Source: an uncultured cyanobacterium (GTDB lineage Bacteria > Cyanobacteriota > Cyanobacteriia > Cyanobacteriales > Nostocaceae). Taken from it: DNA of 64,000 bases. Where the stretch lies: contig CAINGU010000063.1 of the NCBI GenBank assembly GCA_903848645.1, positions 1-64,000 on the forward strand. The letters run 5' to 3'. The notes under the pieces are model-generated. The model worked only from the letters and a program-made list of their open reading frames with translations, did no database searches and was not told the DNA's origin. Numbering within the stretch: the first letter of the stretch is position 1; the number at the start of each line of letters is the position of its first letter. Shown here piece after piece: positions 7,393-21,257 of the stretch. Both the position numbers and the translations under genes were made by a program.

Positions 7393-8520
7393 TCAAGCAA
7401 TTAATTGCTGAATTGCCTTAGCCATATCATCCCAAGTGTAATTTCTTAATTCCTGACTAAGAGAAAATACTAACTTTTTATAATCTTCTTGATGCGATCG
7501 CCATTTTTGCAGTCTTGCTACCAAATCATCAACATCATCAGGATTAGGAAGTAACAAATCTTGCAACTGCGGGGGATAACGTTCCGCAACACCAGCATCA
7601 GCACTAACTATTGCTGGTAAACCACAACAGAGAGCTTCATGTACTCCTAAACCATAAGCCTCATAACGAGTCGGAGCAACCAAACAATCAGCAGCCCGTA
7701 GCAAATTCGGAACATCGTTACGAAAACCTAGAAAATGAATGTTAGAGATGCCAGCATCAGCAGCACGGCTTTTCCATAACGGTAGTTCCGCACCAACTCC
7801 TACCACCACCAAATCTGCATTCCAATTTGGCGATTTACATAACTCTTGCCAAGCTGTAAATAGAGTATCAAATCCTTTCCGGCGATCGCCTAAAGCACCA
7901 ATAAATACTACAATATTCTTATCTAGTGACCATCCTAACTGTTGACGAAGTATAGCCCGTTCTGTTGGTGACGCTGGATAAAAGATTTGGGGATCTATAC
8001 CATAATAAATTACCTGTATTTTTTCCTCTGGTATTGCCAATTTCTCTATCAAATCTTGTTTAGTCCGCTGAGAATTAGCAATAACTACCCGTGCATTAGG
8101 TAATACTTGTTTTTCCTCATTCAAACATACCCAATGATCAATCTTACGCTTCCAATAACGGAGTAAGTTCACCTGAGAATCAGATTCATAAGCGGCATGA
8201 ACATAATGTACCCAATTCCCATCTCCCCATTGACAATTACCCCCATTCACCAAAACTCTAGTATCCTCTCCTCTGAGACGCTTTGCTTGTAAACGTCCTA
8301 TCCAATTAAGGAACGGGTTACTCAGTAAATTAGAATTAGCTAATTTTGGCACAGGATGAAATTGAACATGAGGATAAGCCAATAATTCATCCGCTACTTG
8401 ATAGGCTACTAGATTTACTTTTTCTCCCTGTCTTGCCAAATATTCAGCTAGAGCAAAATTAGCTCTATCCATGCCACCGGTTTTCACAAAATCGGCTACT
8501 ACGAGTAAATAAGATTTCAT
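7393..8520 (-). CDS. GT4-family glycosyltransferase
   Basis: I start this at MKSYLLVVADFVKTGGMDRAN (ATG at 8520). A longer open frame to 8589 would run through a palindromic repeat and adds residues the family lacks. The roughly 375-residue protein has the glycine-rich acceptor loop, VVFIGALGDRRKGFDTLF, LVVVGVG and the E-x7-E motif in TRYEAYGLGVHEALCCGLP. It is the last gene of the minus-strand exopolysaccharide run from 13563, separated from the O-antigen ligase gene by about 117 bases containing the repeat. Confidence 0.85.
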   Translation of the reverse strand: MKSYLLVVADFVKTGGMDRANFALAEYLARQGEKVNLVAYQVADELLAYPHVQFHPVPKLANSNLLSNPFLNWIGRLQAKRLRGEDTRVLVNGGNCQWGDGNWVHYVHAAYESDSQVNLLRYWKRKIDHWVCLNEEKQVLPNARVVIANSQRTKQDLIEKLAIPEEKIQVIYYGIDPQIFYPASPTERAILRQQLGWSLDKNIVVFIGALGDRRKGFDTLFTAWQELCKSPNWNADLVVVGVGAELPLWKSRAADAGISNIHFLGFRNDVPNLLRAADCLVAPTRYEAYGLGVHEALCCGLPAIVSADAGVAERYPPQLQDLLLPNPDDVDDLVARLQKWRSHQEDYKKLVFSLSQELRNYTWDDMAKAIQQLIA

Positions 8521-8574
8521 AACTATATACGGTTGGGAGATGGACTTTTGCAAAATTACGAAAAACCTAGATTT

Positions 8575-8603
8575 GTAGGGGTTTAGCACTGCTAAACCCC
8601 TAC
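8575..8603. repeat. Perfect 14-bp palindrome (GTAGGG...CCCTAC family)
   Basis: Arm GTAGGGGTTTAGCA, a single C, then the exact reverse complement. The GTAGGG/CCCTAC ends are shared with the repeats at 21052-21222 and 44814-44940. It may act as a processing or termination hairpin between the ligase and glycosyltransferase genes, but no T-tract follows. Confidence 0.7.
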
Positions 8604-8637
8604 CTACAGAATCAAATAATTAGCCGTGTTGAGTATA

Positions 8638-9996
8638 CTAGGTTGTTGAAAGTTTGTCATTTTTAATATTATTAGCAGCCGCAAATAGTGCGCCATTCAA
8701 TAACCATAATTCCATACCCCCTTGACTATTAAATATAGGATAATTAAAGGTAATGGCTATAGCACCAAGATTGTAAGCAAAAACCAATCCACCCCACAGC
8801 GAAAAGTCACCTAATTTACGATTAATAGCAATTTTCCAAGCAGTAATGCAGGCAAAATAAAGTGCAGCAACATAAGCAAATATCAGTGGTACACCTCCAT
8901 CTAATAGCCACCCTGTCCACTGGATTTCTACCCAAATAGGTTGGGACTCCAGATAGGTGTTATCACCAAAATAGTTATTCATCATTCCCCAACGCCCTAA
9001 ACCAGCCCCCAAAGGATATTTAGGTAGTAAGTCGTTAATAGTATCCTGCAAAAAATGTCCCCTATTTTCCTGGTATACTTGGTTAGCAGAACCAGCAAAT
9101 AAGCTAGTTATCCGTTTGAGGGTAGACTGACCTCCAATTGCTACTGCCCAGGAAAACGTTGCTATAAACAAAGCTGTTACACTGGAAACCATCATTGTCA
9201 AACGGGCAATCTGGGCTGTCCTGATTAAGACTACTGCTAATAAGATCATAGAAATAGCAGCCAACACCAAAACAGAACGAACTTGAGACAAATAGATGCA
9301 AAATAGCCCAATACCACCACTAGTTATCCCAGCAATTCGTAAAATCGGATTTTTGTATTTGATGGCAATAACAACACCAAACAACAAAGCATAAAAACCA
9401 GCAGTTGCTGCCCCTCCTGGTGCGTCAGTCAACCCCGTTGGCCGATACACTTGTACGCCATTAGCTAACGTAATTAATAAGTTATCTCCACCATAGGTAC
9501 TATTCTTAATAACTGTGGAAAGAGATGGCTGAAATTTGCCAGGAAAGTACATTTGTAACACCCCAAAACATGAACTGAGAGTGTGAATTCCCCACATCAA
9601 AAATATTAAACTATTGAACCCAACCTGTGTAATTTTTAAACCTCTCGCCCAAAATAGGGGACTGAGAATGGCAAGATATATGGCACATTCAGCCAGCCCA
9701 GCCGTTATAGAATTAATCTGAGGATGTAAACTCAACTCTAACACCAGGATGGCCATGACTATCAATGCTGGGTTAGTGGCAGGATGTTTGTTTCCTTCTG
9801 GTTTCAACTTTACTAATAAAAACAGACTCAGTGCGAAGGTGGCAATCCGCATGGGTATACGGATAAGACCTATTTGGGGAATCAATAATAATAGTTGAAG
9901 GGTAAACTGGATGAGAATGAAGTTGTGCGCCCATGTCCAGTTTAGTTTTTCCCAGATAGAAGCATTTAGTAAGTTATGTTCTGTTTGGCTAATCAC
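8638..9996 (-). CDS. O-antigen ligase / Wzy-like polymerase family membrane protein
   Basis: This 452-residue protein has about 11-12 membrane helices and one large loop around residues 290-360 containing RGHFLQDTINDLLPKYPLGAGLGRWGMM. A G-x-G-x-G-x-W loop is the usual position of the periplasmic catalytic loop in WaaL/Wzy proteins. It would polymerise or transfer lipid-linked glycan at the outer face of the plasma membrane. It follows the acetyltransferase gene by 35 bases on the same strand. Sequence does not separate polymerase from ligase; with a Wzc-like protein nearby, polymerase is the better guess. Confidence 0.75.
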   Translation of the reverse strand: MISQTEHNLLNASIWEKLNWTWAHNFILIQFTLQLLLLIPQIGLIRIPMRIATFALSLFLLVKLKPEGNKHPATNPALIVMAILVLELSLHPQINSITAGLAECAIYLAILSPLFWARGLKITQVGFNSLIFLMWGIHTLSSCFGVLQMYFPGKFQPSLSTVIKNSTYGGDNLLITLANGVQVYRPTGLTDAPGGAATAGFYALLFGVVIAIKYKNPILRIAGITSGGIGLFCIYLSQVRSVLVLAAISMILLAVVLIRTAQIARLTMMVSSVTALFIATFSWAVAIGGQSTLKRITSLFAGSANQVYQENRGHFLQDTINDLLPKYPLGAGLGRWGMMNNYFGDNTYLESQPIWVEIQWTGWLLDGGVPLIFAYVAALYFACITAWKIAINRKLGDFSLWGGLVFAYNLGAIAITFNYPIFNSQGGMELWLLNGALFAAANNIKNDKLSTT

Positions 9997-10031
9997 TCAA
10001 TTTACCTAAATATAAATAATTTAATTTATCC

Positions 10032-10514
10032 CTATCTATTACTAACAGATTCATCATTCATGCTGCTTGTAGATAGTGCTTTTTGGATTGGTTTTGCTGG
10101 TACTCCTACTACTGTTTGACCTGGTGGTACATCCTTTGTAACTACAGCATTAGCGCCAATTATTGCACCATTACCAATGGTTAAACTTTGGTATCCCCGT
10201 CCAACTATCACTACTCCAGTACCAATAATGACATCATCCCCAATAAAAACTTTATGTTCAGAGCCAATGGGAACATTAGCAGCTATTGTGACATTGTGAA
10301 ATATTTCCACACGATGCCCTATTTTTGTGTTGCAGTGAATAACGACACCTAAAGCATAATGTTGAAGTTTAATATCTTTTTCCATTTCTACTTCTGGAGG
10401 CAGAATAGCATGAAATATTAAAAAGTTAATTGCTTTCAATATCCGAGCCATAAAATACATTTTTCTTTGATAAGCTTGGCTACTTAGCCACCATAAATAA
10501 GAGGGATTTAACAT
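10032..10514 (-). CDS. Hexapeptide-repeat (CysE/WcaF-like) acetyltransferase
   Basis: This 160-residue protein has a left-handed beta-helix built of isoleucine-led hexapeptides ([24 protein letters not shown], then [17 protein letters not shown], then [20 protein letters not shown]). It ends in VVGVPAKPI, the standard acyl-CoA-binding end. A conserved His is present (IFHN). Such enzymes O-acetylate sugars or serine; in this glycan cluster sugar O-acetylation is more likely. The N-terminus ([20 protein letters not shown]) resembles the serine acetyltransferase-like cap. Confidence 0.8.
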
Positions 10515-10559
10515 AATTATCCTTGATTTTAATTTTAAAAGAAAATTAGAAGCTCCATT

Positions 10560-11234
10560 TCATGATTTCTGACCTACACAAAGAATATTGTCACTAAAAG
10601 CCCGACCCCGAAAACCTAAACTTTTCGGCCAGTTCCAAGGTGTAAAAGGTATCCGTCCACAATGACTATAATCTATGTTAATATTAGTCAAACCGCACTC
10701 TGTAAATATTCTAATTAAGTCAATTTCCAATAATGCAGTTATATGGGCGGGATAAAGACCAGGTGCTTCTTGAAAGGCGTTAAACTGATTTTTGAGAATT
10801 AACGTTAACTTGCTCAACAGGCTTAAATTATTAGGTGTAGTCACAATTACCAATCCACCTGGTTTAGTTAACCTAAACAATTCTCGCATCAAAGCTCGTG
10901 GGTTTTCTAGGTGTTCAATAACCTCCACTGCACAGACTACATCAGCCACTTGTTCTAGTAAAGGTACTTTGCCAATATCTAAATCAAAAGGAATAAATTC
11001 TATCGGTGTCGGTAAATCATCATAGCGAACAGCGTCTACACCAAGATAACGGTTAAAGCCATTATTTACCAATGAATAAAGTTTGCCCTGACCACAACCC
11101 ACATCTACCAATACACCACCTTGAGAATGTCCTTGGGCTATTATTCTCGCTACCATTTGATAGATATGATCGCCACTAGCACCAAGGCTTTGTTTTGCCC
11201 TATTTTCAACATTACTGACATCAGATAAAGTCAT
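10560..11234 (-). CDS. Class I SAM-dependent methyltransferase
   Basis: The 224 residues show motif I VLVDVGCGQGKLYSL, the acidic LGVDAVRYDDL, then VCAVEVIEHLENPRALMREL and GGLVIVTTPN. This is the Methyltransf_11/23 pattern (EVIEHL is typical of UbiG-like and glycan-modifying enzymes). Its start codon overlaps the stop of the upstream glycosyltransferase by four bases. The substrate is unknown, probably a sugar or lipid carrier intermediate. Confidence 0.8.
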   Translation of the reverse strand: MTLSDVSNVENRAKQSLGASGDHIYQMVARIIAQGHSQGGVLVDVGCGQGKLYSLVNNGFNRYLGVDAVRYDDLPTPIEFIPFDLDIGKVPLLEQVADVVCAVEVIEHLENPRALMRELFRLTKPGGLVIVTTPNNLSLLSKLTLILKNQFNAFQEAPGLYPAHITALLEIDLIRIFTECGLTNINIDYSHCGRIPFTPWNWPKSLGFRGRAFSDNILCVGQKS

Positions 11235-12355
11235 GCCACTACCTCCTGTTTAACAACTTGAGAAAGCAGATTGTAAACCCGATTTAGCTGCTTTTCAGGA
11301 TTACACAAATACTCAGCCCTGGACTTACCACCAGATGATAAAGTTGCTCTTTCACTAGGACTATTAATCAATGCACTTAAAACATCACTTAAGGCATTGA
11401 TATCATGAGGAGCAACCAAGCGCCCACAGGAATCATCAACAATTTCCATTGCTCCCCCCATAGCTGTTGTCACCACTGGTAAACCTGCATAAAGCGCTTC
11501 TATAAAGGCAATTCCAAAAGGTTCAGAACCACTATTGGGCTGACAATGAATATCCGCAGATGCTAACAAGTATGGTACATCAGAACGTTGTCCCAAAAAG
11601 CGAACCTGTTCACTAATACCCAGTTTTTTGACTTGAGTTTCCAATTCTTGCAGATATTCCGCTTCATGGGGACGTTGCACTCCTCCAGCTATCCAACATA
11701 CCCACCCTGGTACTTCCCGCAATTGTCCTAAAGCCGAGATTAACAGACTTTGACCTTTCCAGCGTTCCAGACGAGAGGCTTGAATGATGACTATAGCATT
11801 ATCAGGAGTATTGAGTTCGGCTCTTACAGATTGGCGAATTGAAGCATCATTAACAATATTTGCAGGAGCTACAGGTAGATAAACAGTCTCACAGTGAGTT
11901 TGATAAAGTTTCGTTACAGTCCCTTGGGTGTAATGACTATTAGCAATCACTAAATCTGGAATAACTAACTTTGCTAACTGTTCTAAAACCTGGTTGCCAT
12001 TCACTGTATCATGACACCAAAAAATCAGCGGTATGTGATTAGCCTTGACAACTGAGCCAAAAATTCCTTGTACCCAGCAACCATGACAAATCACTACATC
12101 AAATTGTTCTTGTTTGAGGACTTTTTGGAGTTGATTTCTCGCGTTCCATACAGTCCAAGGATGACTAATTTTAACGTTACCTAATTGATGTACTTTCGCT
12201 CCTAAATTTTGGAGTTCGTCAGCTAATCTACCTGGAAAACACAAAGCAAACTGAGGCTGCATTTGTTGACATAAACCTTGGTATTTGGCTAAAGTTACCA
12301 ATAGGGTTTCAATTCCCCCAAAGATATTTCCTGAGTAAATATGCAGGATTTTCAT
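11231..12355 (-). CDS. GT4-family glycosyltransferase
   Basis: A 374-residue GT-B transferase. MKILHIYSGNIFGGIETLLVTLA gives the acceptor-domain glycine loop. IIQASRLERWKGQSLLISAL and WIAGGVQRPHE mark the nucleotide-sugar domain, and the E-x7-E motif sits in SEPFGIAFIEALYAGLPVV followed by GGAMEIV. It overlaps its neighbours by four bases at both ends (12352-12355 and 11231-11234), so it is in the middle of a tightly coupled operon. Confidence 0.85.
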   Translation of the reverse strand: MKILHIYSGNIFGGIETLLVTLAKYQGLCQQMQPQFALCFPGRLADELQNLGAKVHQLGNVKISHPWTVWNARNQLQKVLKQEQFDVVICHGCWVQGIFGSVVKANHIPLIFWCHDTVNGNQVLEQLAKLVIPDLVIANSHYTQGTVTKLYQTHCETVYLPVAPANIVNDASIRQSVRAELNTPDNAIVIIQASRLERWKGQSLLISALGQLREVPGWVCWIAGGVQRPHEAEYLQELETQVKKLGISEQVRFLGQRSDVPYLLASADIHCQPNSGSEPFGIAFIEALYAGLPVVTTAMGGAMEIVDDSCGRLVAPHDINALSDVLSALINSPSERATLSSGGKSRAEYLCNPEKQLNRVYNLLSQVVKQEVVA

Positions 12356-13563
12356 AGTAAATTCACGGGTGATTGTAGTGTAGTGTAATTCAATTCTGAA
12401 CTCAAAATTTTGTCATATATATTCAAACTACGTTCACCCATAGAAATATGATTAAAATATTCGGCGCGGCTTTGGCAAGCTTTAACGAGTCTATCACGTA
12501 GTCCTGGCTGACGCAGTAGACGATTGGCCGCTTGAGCTAAAGCCTCCGGGTTATTAATAGGTATTGTTAAACCTTCCTGTTCATGACGACTAACCCAAGC
12601 AACTCCACTACAGGGAATATTGGCATTAATCACCGGACAACCACTAGCCATTGCTTCTACCTGAACTAAGCCAAATCCCTCGCTGCGGACATTAGAAGGA
12701 AACCAAAGAGCGGTAGCAGCATGATAAGCTCCTACAAGTTGATCTTCACTGACATGACCTAACCAAACAATGCGGTTTTCAACTCCTAATTTTCTAGCTA
12801 ATGCTCTTAACTTTGCTTCTAAAGCTCCAACTCCAATGATAACGAGTTTTCCGCGTACTCTTGTGAGAGCCTGAATAGCTATATGCAAGGCTTTGTAATA
12901 GACTATTCTACCCACAGCCAGCCAGATTGTATCTCCATGTTCTTGCTGAAGACTGCGACTGTAAGCGAGTGCTTTTTGATGCGGTTGTCTATAAGTTTCA
13001 ATATCTAAACCTAGTGGGAGTGCGTTTAATTTATGAGGATAAAATTGCAGAAATTTTGAGCCTTGAATATACTGAAAACTAGTAGTTAATATTTGTGAAC
13101 TTTGACTGTAAATAATATGTTCAAAAGGACGCAAGGCATATTTTAAGATTTTTTGTTTAATGACATCACTATGGTGAGTAATTACTAAAGGTATTTTCCT
13201 ATTCAACATGGTTAAAGCCATGAGCATAGTTGGATTAGGAGTATGGAGATGAAAAATAGTATTTGGTTTGTTAACAAATTTATTAATTTCTTGGCACAGT
13301 CCTGAACAAATATCAAATCTAGCTACTGATAAAAGCCGACCAAGACGGGTAATTTGAACATTTCTATCCATTTCATAAACAGTCCTGGTTTTAGTCGCTA
13401 AATGTCCCTGTTCATCAAATCCATTGACACAAATTACATGAACTTCTGCACCCATAGCTGCTTGAGTTCTGGCTAGAGTTTGAATATGAGTTTCTATACC
13501 TCCTCTATCTGGAGGATAATATTTAGACAAATGAACAATCCGGATATTAGTAGTTTTTTGCAT
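12352..13563 (-). CDS. GT4-family glycosyltransferase
   Basis: A 403-residue GT-B enzyme with IVHLSKYYPPDRGGIETHIQ at the N-terminus (Gly-Gly acceptor loop), HLHTPNPTMLMAL, IWLAVGRIVYYKALHIAIQAL in the donor domain and the E-x7-E motif in SEGFGLVQVEAMASGCPVI. It starts with ATG at 13563, downstream of MITE1, and overlaps the next glycosyltransferase by four bases. Its promoter may lie in the 13564-13722 spacer or be read through from the exosortase gene. Confidence 0.85.
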   Translation of the reverse strand: MQKTTNIRIVHLSKYYPPDRGGIETHIQTLARTQAAMGAEVHVICVNGFDEQGHLATKTRTVYEMDRNVQITRLGRLLSVARFDICSGLCQEINKFVNKPNTIFHLHTPNPTMLMALTMLNRKIPLVITHHSDVIKQKILKYALRPFEHIIYSQSSQILTTSFQYIQGSKFLQFYPHKLNALPLGLDIETYRQPHQKALAYSRSLQQEHGDTIWLAVGRIVYYKALHIAIQALTRVRGKLVIIGVGALEAKLRALARKLGVENRIVWLGHVSEDQLVGAYHAATALWFPSNVRSEGFGLVQVEAMASGCPVINANIPCSGVAWVSRHEQEGLTIPINNPEALAQAANRLLRQPGLRDRLVKACQSRAEYFNHISMGERSLNIYDKILSSELNYTTLQSPVNLL

Positions 13564-13722: not shown

Positions 13723-13896
13723 GAGGATGTTTGAAAAGTCTAATTTCTTACTAGTCCCGGCGACTGGAAGTCGCGGCTATACAGACGAAACCCACCTGCG
13801 TGGGTTTGAAAACCTTAATTTTCAGTTAGTCCGCGCAGGCGGACTTTGTTTGTGTAGTAGCGATTTATAATCGCCGGAAACTTTTCAAACACCCTC
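13723..13896. mobile_element. MITE with IS5-like ends (MITE1)
   Basis: A 174-bp non-coding element with imperfect inverted ends. The left reads GAGGATGTTTGAAAAGT and the right, reverse-complemented, GAGGGTGTTTGAAAAGT. A 3-bp TAA duplication flanks it (13720-13722 and 13897-13899). GAG-starting ends with TNA duplications fit the IS5/IS1031 group. The inside (13777-13857) is a hairpin-rich core also found at 54643-54712. The right end and its duplication form the stop codon of the exosortase gene. It has no transposase and would need one in trans. Confidence 0.75.
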
Positions 13897-15470
13897 TAAG
13901 ATTTTAGCAATAAAGATTGCCATTTAGGGTAGTTGTCTAACCAAATTGACTGTAAAATAGGATAGATACTAGAGGCTGAAACTCCATTTAAAGGAACAGA
14001 TAACTGTGTCCATAAACAACGATCATCTCTCAGCACATTTTGACCAAAAAGCCAAGGTAAAACCCGGCGCATGGTTAAGTCGTATTTATAGCGGTTTTGC
14101 ATAAATTGAGCGGAGTTAACTGTGCTACCTCCACGAGGATTAACACAGGCTGTAAAGTAAGCTTGTTTACTATCCTCATAGATAATATAGTATCCTATTT
14201 CTGGTGAATACATAACTTGTTTTTGGATATTTTTAAGTGAATCTTGCTTTTTTCCATCTAAAAATGGGTTTTGATTGCCTCTAGTATTGGTCATGTAACG
14301 AATTTGTAATTGTAGTTGCTGATTTTGACTGAGGTAGTTATAATCTTTCCCAGATTGGAACGTGAAAAAATTTTCTGTATTTATATATATTTTCTGTTCT
14401 GGTAAAGAAGTAAATTTAATTTGTTGCCACTTGTTTAAGGCAACTTGTTGTGGTAAAATATTAGGGTTATTGATGGATTTTCTCGTAGCAATTAAAGAGA
14501 TGGCTGTGAGGATAATTCCTAGCCAAGTCCCAACTAAAAATAAGCGCCGTTTTGGTTGAATTAGTTGTTTCTGAATAGGTTTATCTGTGTCTGGAGATGA
14601 ATTTTCTAATGGTAATATCCAATTACATAAAAAGGCATAAGTAATAGTTGCAAAGGTCATAAAAATAACTGCGCCTGTTTGTCCGTGCCAATATGTAAAC
14701 AGACTTTTGTTATTGACGACAAAGACTAATAAAGAAACACGAATACAGCCTGTGAAAAAGCCAACACTAATAGTAGATATAAATAATAAGCATTTTTGCC
14801 GCCAAGTTAGGGGAAAAACAGTTACCATAATTAAAAGTGTGAGCTTAAATAACCAGAGGATTAATACCCCACCTGTACAAGCATAAAGAACTCTTACTTG
14901 GCCAGTAGGGAGTTTAACTAAATCTCCGTAATGAGTGGCTTGAAAGCCAATATAGTGCAGTGAAAAGGCGGATATGGTAGCGGTTAATTCGTTAAAGTGG
15001 AGACGAGAATCAAAGATTTCATTGATAAAGCTAAAGGGGAAAAGCATTAAGCATAATATTAAAAATAATCGCCAATGCTGCTTGAATCCTGAAAAGCCAA
15101 AGGAGAGTAATCCTAATCCTAAACCAGCGATAATGGGGGCATAACGAAAGAGAGTTAAGTCTAAATGCCAAAAATGAAGAGGTCTAAATATAACTATAAA
15201 TAATAGTCCTAAGCCTAACCAACTAGAAACCCAATTTGGGGTATTTTCTTGATAGCGATTTTGCCATAATAAATATAAAATTCCTCCCCAATAAATTGCA
15301 TAGAAGCTGATTTCCTCACTTTCAATGGGGTGAGTTCTAATCATATCTAAATGCCAAACTCCCAGAGTGGTAAAAATCCCCATCAAGTAAAACCATTGGG
15401 TTTGTAATAATGGTGATATCTGAGTTAAAAATTCTTTTTTGATTGCGGTAATTTTTGGATTAATTAGCAT
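13896..15470 (-). CDS. Cyanoexosortase fused to an EpsI-like associated domain
   Basis: The first 290 residues are a polytopic exosortase with the expected triad: Cys198 in VLYACTGG, Arg244 in GCIRVSLL and His262 in YWHGQTG. Exosortases cleave and probably re-anchor PEP-CTERM proteins at the cell surface. A linker leads to another membrane helix (about 309-328) and a soluble domain (about 335-524, with QLQIRYMTNTRGN) that looks like the separately encoded cyanoexosortase A system-associated/EpsI protein. Exosortases alone are about 280 residues, so 524 indicates a fusion. HpsJ-like and PEP-CTERM genes lie just upstream on the same strand. The TAG stop is formed by MITE1. The A-type assignment is by pattern only. 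Confidence 0.8.
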   Translation of the reverse strand: MLINPKITAIKKEFLTQISPLLQTQWFYLMGIFTTLGVWHLDMIRTHPIESEEISFYAIYWGGILYLLWQNRYQENTPNWVSSWLGLGLLFIVIFRPLHFWHLDLTLFRYAPIIAGLGLGLLSFGFSGFKQHWRLFLILCLMLFPFSFINEIFDSRLHFNELTATISAFSLHYIGFQATHYGDLVKLPTGQVRVLYACTGGVLILWLFKLTLLIMVTVFPLTWRQKCLLFISTISVGFFTGCIRVSLLVFVVNNKSLFTYWHGQTGAVIFMTFATITYAFLCNWILPLENSSPDTDKPIQKQLIQPKRRLFLVGTWLGIILTAISLIATRKSINNPNILPQQVALNKWQQIKFTSLPEQKIYINTENFFTFQSGKDYNYLSQNQQLQLQIRYMTNTRGNQNPFLDGKKQDSLKNIQKQVMYSPEIGYYIIYEDSKQAYFTACVNPRGGSTVNSAQFMQNRYKYDLTMRRVLPWLFGQNVLRDDRCLWTQLSVPLNGVSASSIYPILQSIWLDNYPKWQSLLLKS

Positions 15471-15747: not shown

Positions 15748-16491
15748 TTATCGCTGACTTTTCTCAATGGTGCGTGTCCAACTGGTTAACCTCCAGAGGA
15801 TAATAAAACAAACTCCTGAGATGATTGCACCTATGTTGATTCTGACTGCGGTTTTAATCAGGTTTTTTGTTTGTTCTCGTTTGGCTGTATTGGCAACATT
15901 GATAGCATTTTGAGCGGAGTTTTGAATTTGTTGGGAGATTTTATTTTTTAAGTCTTGGGGGGATTGCTGAGAATTGGGTTCTATGGGGATATTCAAACTT
16001 GCGGCTATGCTAGTTAGTTGTTGGGGAGATGTGACAGTTTTTAATTTTTCTGTAATTTTTTGGATTTGCTCTTGTTGTTGTGATTGTTGAGTGGCAAATT
16101 GATTGTTAATAGTTCTATAAATTGTCAGACTATTATTAATTCCCAAAGGCAACATTAATAAATAAAATATGCCAATGACTAAGGATATCCAAGATAAAAA
16201 TTTTAATATACCGATTTGTTTAACATTAACAATGCTGCTTTGGTTGAATACAAAGATAAATGCAAATCCTAGTAAAATACTCCAAACATGATCTACCATT
16301 TGGCTAATGGCCTGAAATTCCCAATTCGGATTTGTTAGCTGGGGAGGGAGGAGAATAGCGAGGTAGTCAAATAGGGAAAATATGAGGAGGCTATAACCAA
16401 GAAATCGTAATAAGGCAAAGGAACGCTTTTCAATAAATTCTGTAATTTCTATGGGTTTGCTAGGGGTTTTTTCGGCTTTTTTGGCTTTCAT
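15748..16491 (-). CDS. HpsJ-like membrane protein, exosortase-associated
   Basis: A 247-residue protein with three N-terminal membrane helices (about 27-48, 66-84, 93-117), a Gln-rich helical section (about 125-205; QQSQQQEQIQKITEKL and PQQLTSIAASLNIPIEP) and a final helix (about 214-233). This layout matches HpsJ-like proteins of hormogonium polysaccharide and cyanoexosortase loci. The exact role is unknown; it is proposed to help polysaccharide or exosortase function at the membrane. It lies between the PEP-CTERM gene and the exosortase gene, same strand. Its TAA stop is the MITE2 target duplication. Confidence 0.65.
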   Translation of the reverse strand: MKAKKAEKTPSKPIEITEFIEKRSFALLRFLGYSLLIFSLFDYLAILLPPQLTNPNWEFQAISQMVDHVWSILLGFAFIFVFNQSSIVNVKQIGILKFLSWISLVIGIFYLLMLPLGINNSLTIYRTINNQFATQQSQQQEQIQKITEKLKTVTSPQQLTSIAASLNIPIEPNSQQSPQDLKNKISQQIQNSAQNAINVANTAKREQTKNLIKTAVRINIGAIISGVCFIILWRLTSWTRTIEKSQR

Positions 16492-16713: not shown

Positions 16714-17349
16714 TCAAGAGCGAACCGCTACAACAGGGTTGGCAATGCGGGTTTTTGATGCTATGCTTTTCCTTACTTTTCTCATTGCACCCAGCGCTAG
16801 TAGAGAGCCTACTGCGGGAATGGTTGCGCCTCCGGGGATGTTGTCGAAGGGGACAGCTTCAGCAGAGAACGCTCCCCTCCAGCTATTGTTTTGATCATTC
16901 ATTAATGTAGCTCCTATATATTGACTTGTTGTTATTTGATTTGTTGTTATTTGATTTGTTGTTGTGTTACCTTGATCATCAACAAAAGGCAGTATATCAT
17001 CATCTGATTGATATGTTAATGTCCCTTGAACGGATTGCTCCATGGCTAACTTGTACTTAATCCCTCCTATATTGGTAAAGCTTACCCCATTAACGTTGAG
17101 AGGGAATTGGTTATCATTTCCACTCCACACCCCAGCACCCAACAGAGATCCAATAGGAGTTCCACCGACACTTCCAGAAATTCCGGTTATTGTATTGCCC
17201 GTGACATCGAATGTTCCACTCGTGTTTGCTAAACCCGAGAAACTCCAGTTATACGTCAGTGCATGAGCAGGAGACATACTAGCAAGGACACCAGCAACAG
17301 CGCTACCAACAACTAATGGTAAAAGACGAGATAGGGATTTGAGTTTCAT
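16714..17349 (-). CDS. Secreted PEP-CTERM-like protein (cyanobacterial PF variant)
   Basis: A 211-residue protein with a clear signal peptide (SRLLPLVVGSAVAGVLASM, cut near SPAHA, about residue 30) and a Gly/Thr/Asn-rich beta body. Its C-terminus has AVPFDNIPGG, then the short hydrophobic IPAVGSLLALGAM and basic RKVRKSIASKTR. That is the tripartite exosortase signal, with PF in place of PEP and an unusually long tail (about 12 residues after the basic patch). QITTN is repeated near residue 135 and encoded by a 15-bp tandem repeat. The exosortase two genes downstream is its presumed processor. The function of the body is unknown. Confidence 0.65.
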   Translation of the reverse strand: MKLKSLSRLLPLVVGSAVAGVLASMSPAHALTYNWSFSGLANTSGTFDVTGNTITGISGSVGGTPIGSLLGAGVWSGNDNQFPLNVNGVSFTNIGGIKYKLAMEQSVQGTLTYQSDDDILPFVDDQGNTTTNQITTNQITTSQYIGATLMNDQNNSWRGAFSAEAVPFDNIPGGATIPAVGSLLALGAMRKVRKSIASKTRIANPVVAVRS

Positions 17350-17442: not shown

Positions 17443-17505
17443 TATACTCTTATGGTATTGTTGTATAAAAATAACTAAAATTTGACTACCCCATACCATA
17501 AATAT

Positions 17506-19596
17506 ATGGAAGAATACTTACGATATTGGATTATCCTCAAGCGTCGGTGGTTGCCTGTTTCCATCGTTTTCTTGACTCTGTTGGGCTTGAGTATTGTTAA
17601 AACCGTACTAGAAACACCTATTTATCAAGCATCTGGTCAGTTAGTGCTGAAAAAGAATTCCACCTCTTCACTAACAGGGGTAGGTAGCCAATTAGGACAA
17701 CTGGAAAGTTCAGTCACAGGTAGACCGGTGGGAACGGAAGTAGCAATATTACGTTCCCTACCTATAGCTACCAGAACTATTAATAGCCTCAAACTCAACT
17801 TAAACCCTTTCGTTTTTTTAAAAGATTTAGAGGTCAAGAATATAGAAAATACAGATATTCTGGAAGTAAATTATATAAGTACAAATCCTGGAGAAGCGGC
17901 TAAAATTGTTAATTCTCTCATGAAAATCTATATAGAGAATGATATTAATGCCAACCGAATGCAAACCAAGTCTGCGAGGGACTTTATCGCTCAACAACTG
18001 CCAAAAAGAAAAGCTGCATTGCAAGCTGCGGAAAAAAGACTGCAAGTTTTCAAACAGCAAAACAGAGTATTAGACCTAAAAGCAGAAGCCGCATCCACTG
18101 TCAGTATTTTAACAGATTTAGATAGACAAGTAGCGGCAACCAGGTCAGAATTATCAGCACAAACAGCAAGAAAGGAATCAATTCGGGAATTGTTTGGCGT
18201 AACTTCACAGCAAGCTGTAATTTCTGGTTTTGTAGGTGAGTCACCCAATGTTACCCCAGTTCTCCAACAGTTACAAGATGCCCAACAAAAACTCGCAGTC
18301 TTAAAATTGCGCTTAACTGATACCCATCCAAGCATAGTTAATCTCAAGGAAGAAGTAGCAGTTCTTAACACAGAACTTAAGAGCCGTATCGAAAAAAGTT
18401 TTATTGGTAATGTCGGGCGCTTAAATAAAATCCGTGAAGCAAAAGATATCATTCAACTACGTGGTCTAGGTTTACAACAAGGTATTCTCAGTAATTATGC
18501 TAGTGCTGAATCGGAACGATTAAGCTTACAGGTGCGGTTGAAGGCTTTGGCTGGTGTGATTCAATCTTATCGAGAAAGGGCTGGATCATTACCACAACTT
18601 GAATTACAACAACGCCAGTTAGAACGGGAAATCAATGCCAGTGATACTAGCTATCAAAATCTTTTGGCTAGGTATCAGGATTTGCAAGTAGCCGAAAATA
18701 TGCAAGTCAGTAATGCCGTAATCATTACACCTGCCTTTATTCCCGGCGTACCAATTAAGAGCCGTCAGTATATTAATTTACTGCAAGGATTGATTGGTGG
18801 GCTGTTACTGGGTGCGGCTACAGCCTTTGTTCTAGAAAAAATGGACAAAACGATCAAAACAACTAAATCTGCTCAAGATTTACTGGGATATAAGCTACTG
18901 GCCTACATTCCCCAGTTTAGTAATGATGGGGAAATTCCCGATGTAATTGTGAGAAATAAACCCGAATCTCCTGTCAGTGAAGCTTTTCGGATGTTGCAAA
19001 CCAATTTGAGATATTTTAATTCTGACCAATCTATCAAAGTCATTGTGATATCAAGTGCCGCACCCAAAGAAGGTAAATCAACAATTGCCGCTAATTTAGC
19101 CTTTTCAATATCACAAATAGGACGGAGAGTGTTGTTGGTAGATGCAGATTTGCGAAACCCCAGTCAAGATAAAATTTGGGAAGTTACCAATGAACTTGGT
19201 TTAAGTAATGTAATTAGAGATCAATTGAATTTAGATAATGCCGTGACGGAAATTGTTCCTAATTTTTATTTGATGACTGTTGGTGAACAAATGAATAATC
19301 CATCTACCCTCATTGATTCTAGTCAAATGGCTGTATTTGTCGCCCAAGCTGCCCAAAAATATGATTTTGTCGTCATAGATACACCACCCTTGACAGTTGC
19401 TGCTGATGCCACTATTTTAGGCAAATTGGCAACTGGAATTTTGTTTGTTGTCCGACCAGGAGTAGCTGATACTAATAGTATTTCTATTGCTAAGGATTTG
19501 TTAGAGAAAGCCAACCAAAATGTTTTAGGTGTGACAATGAATGGTATTAGCGCCAAGCAGCAATATTATGATTATGCTGGAAGTGAGGTTAATTAG
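17506..19596 (+). CDS. Wzc-like polysaccharide co-polymerase / bacterial tyrosine kinase
   Basis: The protein (696 residues from ATG 17506; a TTG at 17482 is possible) has a Wzz domain with membrane helices near residues 17-37 and 421-445, flanking a long periplasmic coiled coil. The cytoplasmic BY-kinase domain has Walker A APKEGKST (about 517), Walker A' RVLLVDADLRNP and Walker B DFVVIDTPP. A short tyrosine cluster (QQYYDY) at the C-terminus is the likely autophosphorylation site. It controls chain length and export in Wzy-dependent polysaccharide synthesis. It is divergent from the PEP-CTERM gene. Confidence 0.9.
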   Translation: MEEYLRYWIILKRRWLPVSIVFLTLLGLSIVKTVLETPIYQASGQLVLKKNSTSSLTGVGSQLGQLESSVTGRPVGTEVAILRSLPIATRTINSLKLNLNPFVFLKDLEVKNIENTDILEVNYISTNPGEAAKIVNSLMKIYIENDINANRMQTKSARDFIAQQLPKRKAALQAAEKRLQVFKQQNRVLDLKAEAASTVSILTDLDRQVAATRSELSAQTARKESIRELFGVTSQQAVISGFVGESPNVTPVLQQLQDAQQKLAVLKLRLTDTHPSIVNLKEEVAVLNTELKSRIEKSFIGNVGRLNKIREAKDIIQLRGLGLQQGILSNYASAESERLSLQVRLKALAGVIQSYRERAGSLPQLELQQRQLEREINASDTSYQNLLARYQDLQVAENMQVSNAVIITPAFIPGVPIKSRQYINLLQGLIGGLLLGAATAFVLEKMDKTIKTTKSAQDLLGYKLLAYIPQFSNDGEIPDVIVRNKPESPVSEAFRMLQTNLRYFNSDQSIKVIVISSAAPKEGKSTIAANLAFSISQIGRRVLLVDADLRNPSQDKIWEVTNELGLSNVIRDQLNLDNAVTEIVPNFYLMTVGEQMNNPSTLIDSSQMAVFVAQAAQKYDFVVIDTPPLTVAADATILGKLATGILFVVRPGVADTNSISIAKDLLEKANQNVLGVTMNGISAKQQYYDYAGSEVN

Positions 19597-19836: not shown

Positions 19837-21018
19837 CTATTTAACCTGCTGATAAATTGTAATAATTTGTTCACCTAAACGTTGGTGACTAAAATTATTT
19901 GTAGCTGTTTTTCTGGCATTTGCTGAGAGAAATTGGCGTTTTTCTGGGTTGTCAAGTAAATCTAGAATAGCTGCTGCTAGGGCTTTTGGTTCTCCTGGTG
20001 GTACACCAATTGCATCATAATTATGGGTGAATAACTCAGCCGCACCACCAGCTTGAGATACTATCACTGGTTTACCACAAGCCATTGCTTCTACTATTGC
20101 TAAACCAAAGGGTTCAGGTTGGGTACTGGCATGAATGACGATATCCAAATCACGGTAAACTTGAACTATATCTTCCTGAAAACCGAGAAAATCAACTTTG
20201 TCTGCAATCTCTAAATATGCGGCTTTATCTTTTAATTCCTGTTCGGAAAATTGAGAACCGCGAGTTTTATAAATTGCTCCACCAACTATCCAAAACCGCA
20301 CATTTAAATCAGGATGGGTTTTGATAATTTCTGCTGCTGCTGCTAAGAAAATATCATGACCTTTCCACCGGGCAAAAGTCGCAACCAATCCTATTTTTAA
20401 GAAAGTATCGGGAGGTGAAGCTAGGGGAGAGAAATAATTAATATCAATGGCATTATAAACTATTTTTATTGGTAATTTAGGTAATGTACTTTTCGCATCT
20501 TTGGCTACAGCTTCAGAAATAGCAATTCCCATTTTAGCCTGATAGCTGAAAAGTTTTAAAACCTGTGCCATGAAGGGACGTGAACCATAGAAATCATGGA
20601 TATGCCAAATAACTGGTGTATCCTTGATTCTGGCTAATGCTATGAGTAAATGAGTTTTAATTCCGTGGGAGTGAATTAAATCTGGTTGGAGTTCCCGGAG
20701 CGATCGCTGAAATTCTCGCAGATATTTGCCGATATGGGGTAAAATTGTGACTAGTCTGAATAATAATATTAATCTCATTACAGCCTGATTACTACCTTTA
20801 AAAGCACTGTCACCCAGTTGGTTTAATTCTTCTGGTAATTTTACTAATTTTACTGATACACCCAATTTTGTCGCTTCCTCTATCAATGGTCCATCAGTCC
20901 CGACAATCAGGAAGAGTTGGATATTTGGCTTTGTATTCAAAAGTGCAGCTATCATAGTTAATAAAACTCTCTCAGCACCACCAATTACTCCTACAGGGTT
21001 GACAAATACAATTTTCAT
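19837..21018 (-). CDS. GT4-family glycosyltransferase
   Basis: A 393-residue GT-B enzyme. KIVFVNPVGVIGGAERVLLT is the acceptor-domain glycine loop, IHSHGIKTHLLIALA and VIWHIHDFYG follow, VATFARWKGHDIFLAAA opens the donor domain, and the E-x7-E motif is in PEPFGLAIVEAMACGKPVI, then GGAAELF. Its ATG (21016-21018) is immediately adjacent to a repeat element (21019-21257) that therefore supplies its ribosome-binding region. It is probably cotranscribed with the next upstream glycosyltransferase (21259-22389). Confidence 0.85.
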   Translation of the reverse strand: MKIVFVNPVGVIGGAERVLLTMIAALLNTKPNIQLFLIVGTDGPLIEEATKLGVSVKLVKLPEELNQLGDSAFKGSNQAVMRLILLFRLVTILPHIGKYLREFQRSLRELQPDLIHSHGIKTHLLIALARIKDTPVIWHIHDFYGSRPFMAQVLKLFSYQAKMGIAISEAVAKDAKSTLPKLPIKIVYNAIDINYFSPLASPPDTFLKIGLVATFARWKGHDIFLAAAAEIIKTHPDLNVRFWIVGGAIYKTRGSQFSEQELKDKAAYLEIADKVDFLGFQEDIVQVYRDLDIVIHASTQPEPFGLAIVEAMACGKPVIVSQAGGAAELFTHNYDAIGVPPGEPKALAAAILDLLDNPEKRQFLSANARKTATNNFSHQRLGEQIITIYQQVK

Positions 21019-21257
21019 ATATAGGATTCCTATTTGATTGTTGAACTATACGTAGGGTGGGCATTGCCCACCGGAGTCCGGTTGTCGGAGTCCGGTTGTC
21101 GGAGTCCGGTTGTGGTGGGCATTGCCCACCGGAGTCCGGTTGTCGGAGTTCGGTTGTGGTGGGCATTGCCCACCGGAGTCCGGTTGTCGGAGTCCGGTTG
21201 TGGTGGGCATTGCCCACCCTACTTAATATTTTCAGGAATCATAAATGATTGCTATAT
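21019..21257. repeat. MITE-like element with tandem palindrome array (element A)
   Basis: It fills the entire gap between two glycosyltransferase genes. Related ends (ATATAGGATTCCTATTTGA on the left; the reverse complement of ATATAGCAATCATTTATGA on the right) enclose 21052-21222. That core holds four copies of the palindrome GGTGGGCATTGCCCACC separated by three, two and two copies of GGAGTCCGGTTGT(C). The same ends and palindrome occur once at 44814-44940. Apparent open frames inside it are products of the repeat. Confidence 0.75.

Follow-up and report, generated by a model that had tools for sequence, protein, structure and literature searches.

A cyanobacterial exosortase joined in one frame to its system-associated protein, a modest variant of known exosortase-partner fusions

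Introduction

A single minus-strand frame in the window (the whole 64,000-nucleotide stretch of cyanobacterial DNA that was analysed) was predicted, from its letters alone, to encode an exosortase joined to an EpsI-like associated protein, in a combination thought to be undescribed. The locus therefore raises the question of whether two normally separate proteins have become one enzyme, and if so which partner is involved, how often the join has arisen and on which exported proteins the enzyme might act. We compared the frame with family models, with relatives in sampled and strain genomes and with known exosortase systems.

Results

The fused frame and its two domains

The frame at 13896..15470 (minus strand) begins with ATG, encodes 524 residues and contains no internal stops. 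Its exosortase domain (residues 23-285; 14616..15404, minus strand) matched the Pfam model PF09721 at residues 35-282 with 95.1 bits (cut-off 25.7) and scored 28.9 bits against the NCBIfam exosortase model TIGR04178 (cut-off 23). The cyanoexosortase A model TIGR03763 (NCBIfam) gave the top score of the exosortase subtypes, 131.9 bits at residues 23-285, though under its cut-off of 150, and we therefore term this half CrtA-like. Cys198 (in YACTGG; codon 14877..14879), Arg244 (14739..14741) and His262 (in YWHG; 14685..14687), all on the minus strand, are presumably the exosortase active-site residues, with Cys198 catalytic. Each was invariant in the 75 aligned rows (25/25 fused and 50/50 split), which together with the PF09721 score bears out the complete exosortase of the original prediction.

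An extra membrane helix recognized by hydropathy (residues 308-330; 14481..14549, minus strand) links the two halves. It begins at PKRR, so that by the positive-inside rule the C-terminal domain should lie outside the cytoplasmic membrane. That domain (residues 336-521; 13908..14465, minus strand) matched TIGR04153, the cyanoexosortase A system-associated family, with 164.3 bits against a cut-off of 100. The helix and the 186-residue helper domain correspond well to the further helix and domain of about 190 residues that had been proposed. Cys442 and Cys485 of the helper domain were both invariant in the alignments. The structure model of the whole fused protein was weak (pLDDT 65.4, pTM 0.42), too poor for contacts between the two domains to be claimed.

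Identity of the partner domain

Judged by its model score, the partner half is a member of the cyanobacterial TIGR04153 family, above the cut-off. The prediction of an associated protein was thus correct, while its EpsI-like character found no counterpart in sequence: the window protein and 21 family members, of which 7 come from fused proteins and 14 are encoded separately, all lacked a match to PF11984 and TIGR02914 at E<=10, with the HMMER filters on, which discard most matches above about 0.1. All 21 matched TIGR04153. The helper domain alone was predicted to be beta-rich with a long final helix (pLDDT 83.9). Foldseek found nothing similar to this model in the PDB at E<=0.001, and the helper profile against the sequences of solved structures gave three matches, none good (best E 6.6). 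We know of no experiment in which TIGR04153 helps catalysis.

Across 291 genomes of the phylum, PF11984 (EpsI) gave one weak match below the cut-off, in an XrtO exosortase. A tblastn search of plasmids with the XrtO protein that has the weak EpsI match gave zero matches. At L171:283-1833 (G069, of the same class), an exosortase O is joined to a different partner family, its C-terminal part being weakly EpsI/DUF3485-like.

Fused orthologues in other cyanobacteria

Fused orthologues of the window protein occur elsewhere in cyanobacteria, mostly at 56-71% identity. They include proteins of Cylindrospermum sp. NIES-4074 (529 aa, 59% identical), Chlorogloeopsis fritschii PCC 6912 (529 aa, 60%) and Chrysosporum bergii ANA360D (533 aa, 71%), and intact fused loci were also found in Trichormus sp. 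NMC-1, Anabaena lutea, Nostoc linckia and Sphaerospermopsis aphanizomenoides. The nearest relatives in the 388-genome sample, from five other genomes, were fused, full length and 56-62% identical. In at least 13 of the 118 family-sample genomes, the window's included, a single open frame matched the query over almost its full length, with an identity of at least 43%; set aside from this count were G745 (stops), G731 (a fragment) and two distant fused frames in G289 (25%) and G245 (28%). A scan of strain genomes gave 40 loci, 12 of them intact fused forms of the window clade, and these loci probably overlap with the sampled genomes, so that the counts are not additive. Two fused-gene copies (G745:C257:1326-2879 and L130:1462-2711) looked broken by stops or a frame change, through decay or assembly error.

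An artefact of assembly or sequencing might have made one frame of two normal genes, the more easily as the split genes of relatives are almost contiguous. The orthologues of similar length and the same layout come from separate isolates and assemblies, which rules out an assembly accident and leaves this explanation a negligible chance. On the evidence of these full-length orthologues, the fusion is genuine.

Of the 16 genomes sampled from the genus of the window, 10 matched the fused protein, and every match was a fused frame. The window copy was merely 25-30% identical to the copies of its congeners, as against 56-71% to those of other genera, so that on sequence identity the window copy is likely to be of another lineage or to have been acquired by horizontal transfer. 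One congener (G354; loci L039 on C34 and L044 on C43) carries two differing fused copies. The window genome itself has a single TIGR04153 match, that of the fused gene.

Split forms of the pair

TIGR04153 matches were found in 129 of 388 genomes. Among the approximately 150 matches listed, 7 lay in open frames of at least 500 aa and the others in frames of at most 343 aa; split forms are the majority of relatives among these matches. The members of the split pair were adjacent on the same strand in 50 of 50 loci, with gaps of -143 to 59 nt, the large overlaps arising because the first start codon was taken. This supports the earlier statement that the components are usually adjacent separate genes, in a sample tilted toward adjacency since 20 of the 50 loci were retrieved as joint matches (the other 30 by the helper alone, a few genes being retrieved twice). 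A second set of 22 loci with a split pair was likewise adjacent throughout. Adjacency is not universal, as L154, L156 and L157 have exosortase and HpsJ-like frames and no helper frame was found between or beside them.

The original prediction had also named, as an outcome that would count against it, a tail shared by all exosortases of the clade as one native domain. This holds in the near clade, where 10 of 10 tree rows were fused and the tail is accordingly the native state, and fails outside it, where split forms occur.

Gene neighbourhood

The next gene upstream (15748..16491, minus strand) encodes an HpsJ-like, cyanoexosortase A-associated protein (NF050013, 260 bits, cut-off 140), the A-type neighbour expected of a cyanoexosortase A system. 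An HpsJ-like gene lay upstream on the same strand, at most 300 nt away, in 11 of the 12 intact fused loci of the clade; at the fused locus L120 it was a 93-aa frame only, and at L132 there was none. Divergent from these genes is a gene for a Wzc-type polysaccharide chain-length/tyrosine autokinase protein (17482..19596, plus strand; NCBIfam search), found in the divergent position in 10 of the 12 loci. The downstream genes (7393..13563, minus strand), judged from best NCBIfam matches under the cut-off, encode three glycosyltransferase-like proteins, one methyltransferase-like and one acyltransferase-like protein, along with a polytopic membrane protein for which no informative match was obtained. 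Short repeated units at 20972-21217, beside a glycosyltransferase-like gene, read as a repetitive frame and are probably intergenic repeats.

A separate, split CrtB system of the window genome, as described for Nostoc punctiforme, lies on contig C104 (L084, genome G000), with aminotransferase-like, CrtB, TIGR04533 partner, Wza-like and Wzc-like genes in a row.

Comparison with known exosortase systems

The closest known arrangement is the split cyanoexosortase A (TIGR03763) with TIGR04153, which has the same domains, order, active-site residues and HpsJ-like neighbour. The window differs from it in encoding one polypeptide, in an exosortase half that scores below the CrtA cut-off, and in its upstream HpsJ gene, which is downstream in 21 of 22 split loci (mostly Microcoleus relatives). 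XrtD (486 model positions), XrtW (494), XrtO (451) and XrtT (472) likewise carry an exosortase and a C-terminal extension in one protein; the window protein matched the exosortase part only of XrtD and XrtW, and it gave no match to XrtO or to XrtT. The pair of cyanoexosortase B and TIGR04533 (Parrett et al. 2025, PMC12188702) is likewise an exosortase plus an associated protein, but the two belong to other families and are separate genes; the window genome has both, split, on C104.

The view that no such fusion had been described did not survive. Haft et al. 2006 (PMC1569441) note homology to EpsI in the C-terminal region of several EpsH proteins, and Table 1 of that paper enters Nmul_A2521 and Tbd_0290 each as EpsH and again as EpsI. 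The NCBIfam title of TIGR02914, ‘exosortase C-terminal domain/associated protein EpsI’, agrees with this. This kind of fusion was therefore already known. In those fusions, as in the window protein, one chain carries an exosortase and, C-terminal to it, an associated domain, and by the same paper the exosortase family usually lies near polysaccharide genes, a further likeness; they carry EpsI, whereas the window protein carries TIGR04153 with no sequence match detected to the EpsI models. In the exosortase literature, covered mostly through abstracts, we found no description of CrtA and TIGR04153 in one chain. The fusion is thus ordinary in kind, a real but modest variant of known exosortase-partner fusions.

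Number of fusion events

The trees comprised 25 fused and 50 split rows, 75 in all, picked as best hits, with uneven sampling. Repeats, near-copies and fragments (L002, L003, L058, L061, L065, L066 and L072) were omitted, as was L001, which gave no hit. The fused rows fell into three groups, namely that of the window (group 1, 10 rows), that of the congeners (group 2, 13 rows) and a pair (group 3, 2 rows). Three changes between fused and split states were required on the exosortase tree and likewise on the two-domain tree, and the two-domain alignment rejected a single fused clade (p 0.018). The HpsJ gene lies upstream in group 1 and in loci L076, L092 and L093 of group 2 (none was found in L074 and L075, both short loci), and downstream in group 3 (L078 and L079), as in the 21 split loci mentioned above. 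The placement of HpsJ fits two or more fusion events.

One fusion ancestral to all sampled fused forms, followed by later splits, would be at odds with the three changes on both trees, the two-domain rejection and the gene order of group 3. It draws support from the exosortase domain alone, which did not reject a single fused clade (AU p 0.09), from the union of groups 1 and 2, which was not rejected on either alignment (p 0.198 for the exosortase, 0.216 for the two domains), and from the HpsJ-upstream order that these groups share where HpsJ was found. We consider a single origin improbable. The stems of the trees are long, so that two or more separate fusions are probable on these alignments, short of proof.

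A conserved tail as candidate sorting signal

A gene 1.2 kb upstream of the fused gene (16714..17349, minus strand) encodes an exported-looking protein of 211 aa, recognized by sequence pattern as a candidate substrate. Its tail is IPGGATIPAVGSLLALGAMRKVRK and its C-terminal end VPFDNIPGGATIPAVGSLLALGAMRKVRKSIASKTRIANPVVAVRS, with the IPGGATIP motif, located by motif search, encoded at 16817..16839 (minus strand). The tail PF[DN]IPGGATIPxxGxLxALGxMRKxRK, with variants, was seen on exported-looking proteins in the window (16714-17349) and at L108-L110, L112-L118, L127 and L160-L167, and some genomes hold several such proteins each. Variants include TPGGATIATVGSLFALGLMRKAKK in G639 and TPAGQAMATVGSLFALGLMRQAKK in G612. 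All 15 distinct tails gathered by pattern had the motif, a hydrophobic stretch and a basic cluster, as expected of tails selected with just such a pattern. Their hydrophobic part is short, and the chain continues for about 10 to 20 residues beyond the basic cluster.

Against NCBIfam, the 211-aa window protein matched no family at E<=0.5, four tails alone matched no family, and five further tail proteins matched no sorting-signal model. In the PEP-CTERM and exosortase literature, represented mostly by abstracts, we found no description of an IPGGATIP-type tail.

The exact motif DNA occurred in 5 of 388 genomes of the order, in G369 inside another protein; G369 aside, three of the four other exact-motif genomes in this sample hold the clade-1 fusion. 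The exact motif was present in 1 of 16 genomes of the genus, that of the window, and absent from three of the six closest fused genomes. Among the matches listed for the family sample, a match covering the tail was found in 9 of 13 clade-1 genomes (G642, G725, G731 and G775 had none) vs 2 of 105 others (Fisher p 4e-9, with genome kinship ignored), and any match of the tail protein in 10 of 13 vs 7 of 105. G289 has a tail-region match and a distant fused enzyme as its sole one; no such tail was printed for its locus L168. These distributions suggest that the conserved tail is a candidate sorting signal tracking this fused lineage.

The IPGGATIP-tail proteins might instead be processed by CrtB or by no exosortase, with other substrates for the fused enzyme. 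G212 combines a tail protein with a CrtB-like enzyme as its sole exosortase, and a CrtB-like exosortase is also encoded in all nine tail-bearing clade-1 genomes, so that CrtB might be the enzyme of the tail; ‘CrtB-like’ was assigned here by similar score, the copy of the window genome being tested with its own model. The continuation past the basic cluster also sets these proteins apart from textbook PEP-CTERM tails. Against this assignment, G205 and G394 have a CrtB-like exosortase without the exact motif, and G663, G726, G742 and G753 have one without a tail-covering match. In the window genome, G670, G747 and G766, moreover, the tail gene lies within 4 kb of the fused gene and the CrtB-like gene on another contig. 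We regard processing by CrtB or by no exosortase as rather unlikely. A tentative proposal, for which we would give somewhat less than even odds, is that the lineage of fused CrtA-like enzymes forms a separate sorting system with a tail signal particular to it (PF[DN]IPGGATIPxxGxLxALGxMR[KQ]x[KR]K and variants), the tethering of the helper being paired with a changed substrate signal.

Discussion

Our preferred reading, to which we give a probability of about 70%, is that a CrtA-like exosortase has been joined in frame to its TIGR04153 helper and acts on tail-bearing exported proteins. Most likely, an adjacent helper gene downstream in the same direction came to be read on from the exosortase gene by loss of a stop. 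The exosortase would cleave exported proteins at a C-terminal sorting tail on the outer face of the cytoplasmic membrane, forming an acyl-enzyme at the cysteine and then passing the protein on. The tethered domain, placed beside the active site by the extra helix, may assist in holding or receiving the substrate, in the manner of a separate helper, and the fusion would keep exosortase and helper at 1:1. The IPGGATIP-tail proteins, including the one encoded 1.2 kb upstream, are the likely substrates. We infer that the two domains act jointly on them.

The join could also be functionally neutral, a stop-loss fusion in which the helper acts as it does in trans and co-inheritance is the only consequence. 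Split pairs overlap or almost touch, so that fusion is mechanically easy; it probably arose at least twice, and split forms are the commoner (7 of about 150 matches listed lie in frames of at least 500 aa). Had the join brought no benefit, it could have been lost again over such divergence, yet all 10 window-clade and all 13 second-group tree rows, picked as best hits, were fused. A neutral join is, in our estimation, rather doubtful, and we retain the cooperating fused enzyme as the preferred reading.

Of the two halves, the helper alone scored over the cut-off of its subtype model, so automatic annotation may label the whole enzyme an ‘associated protein’. The fusion as such establishes no new principle. 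Its recurrence, in probably two or more events, is independent genetic evidence of direct cooperation between helper and exosortase, on which the fused protein offers a single-gene handle. It also points to an unnamed tail signal; as a concrete putative substrate feature, this candidate signal may matter more than the fusion itself.
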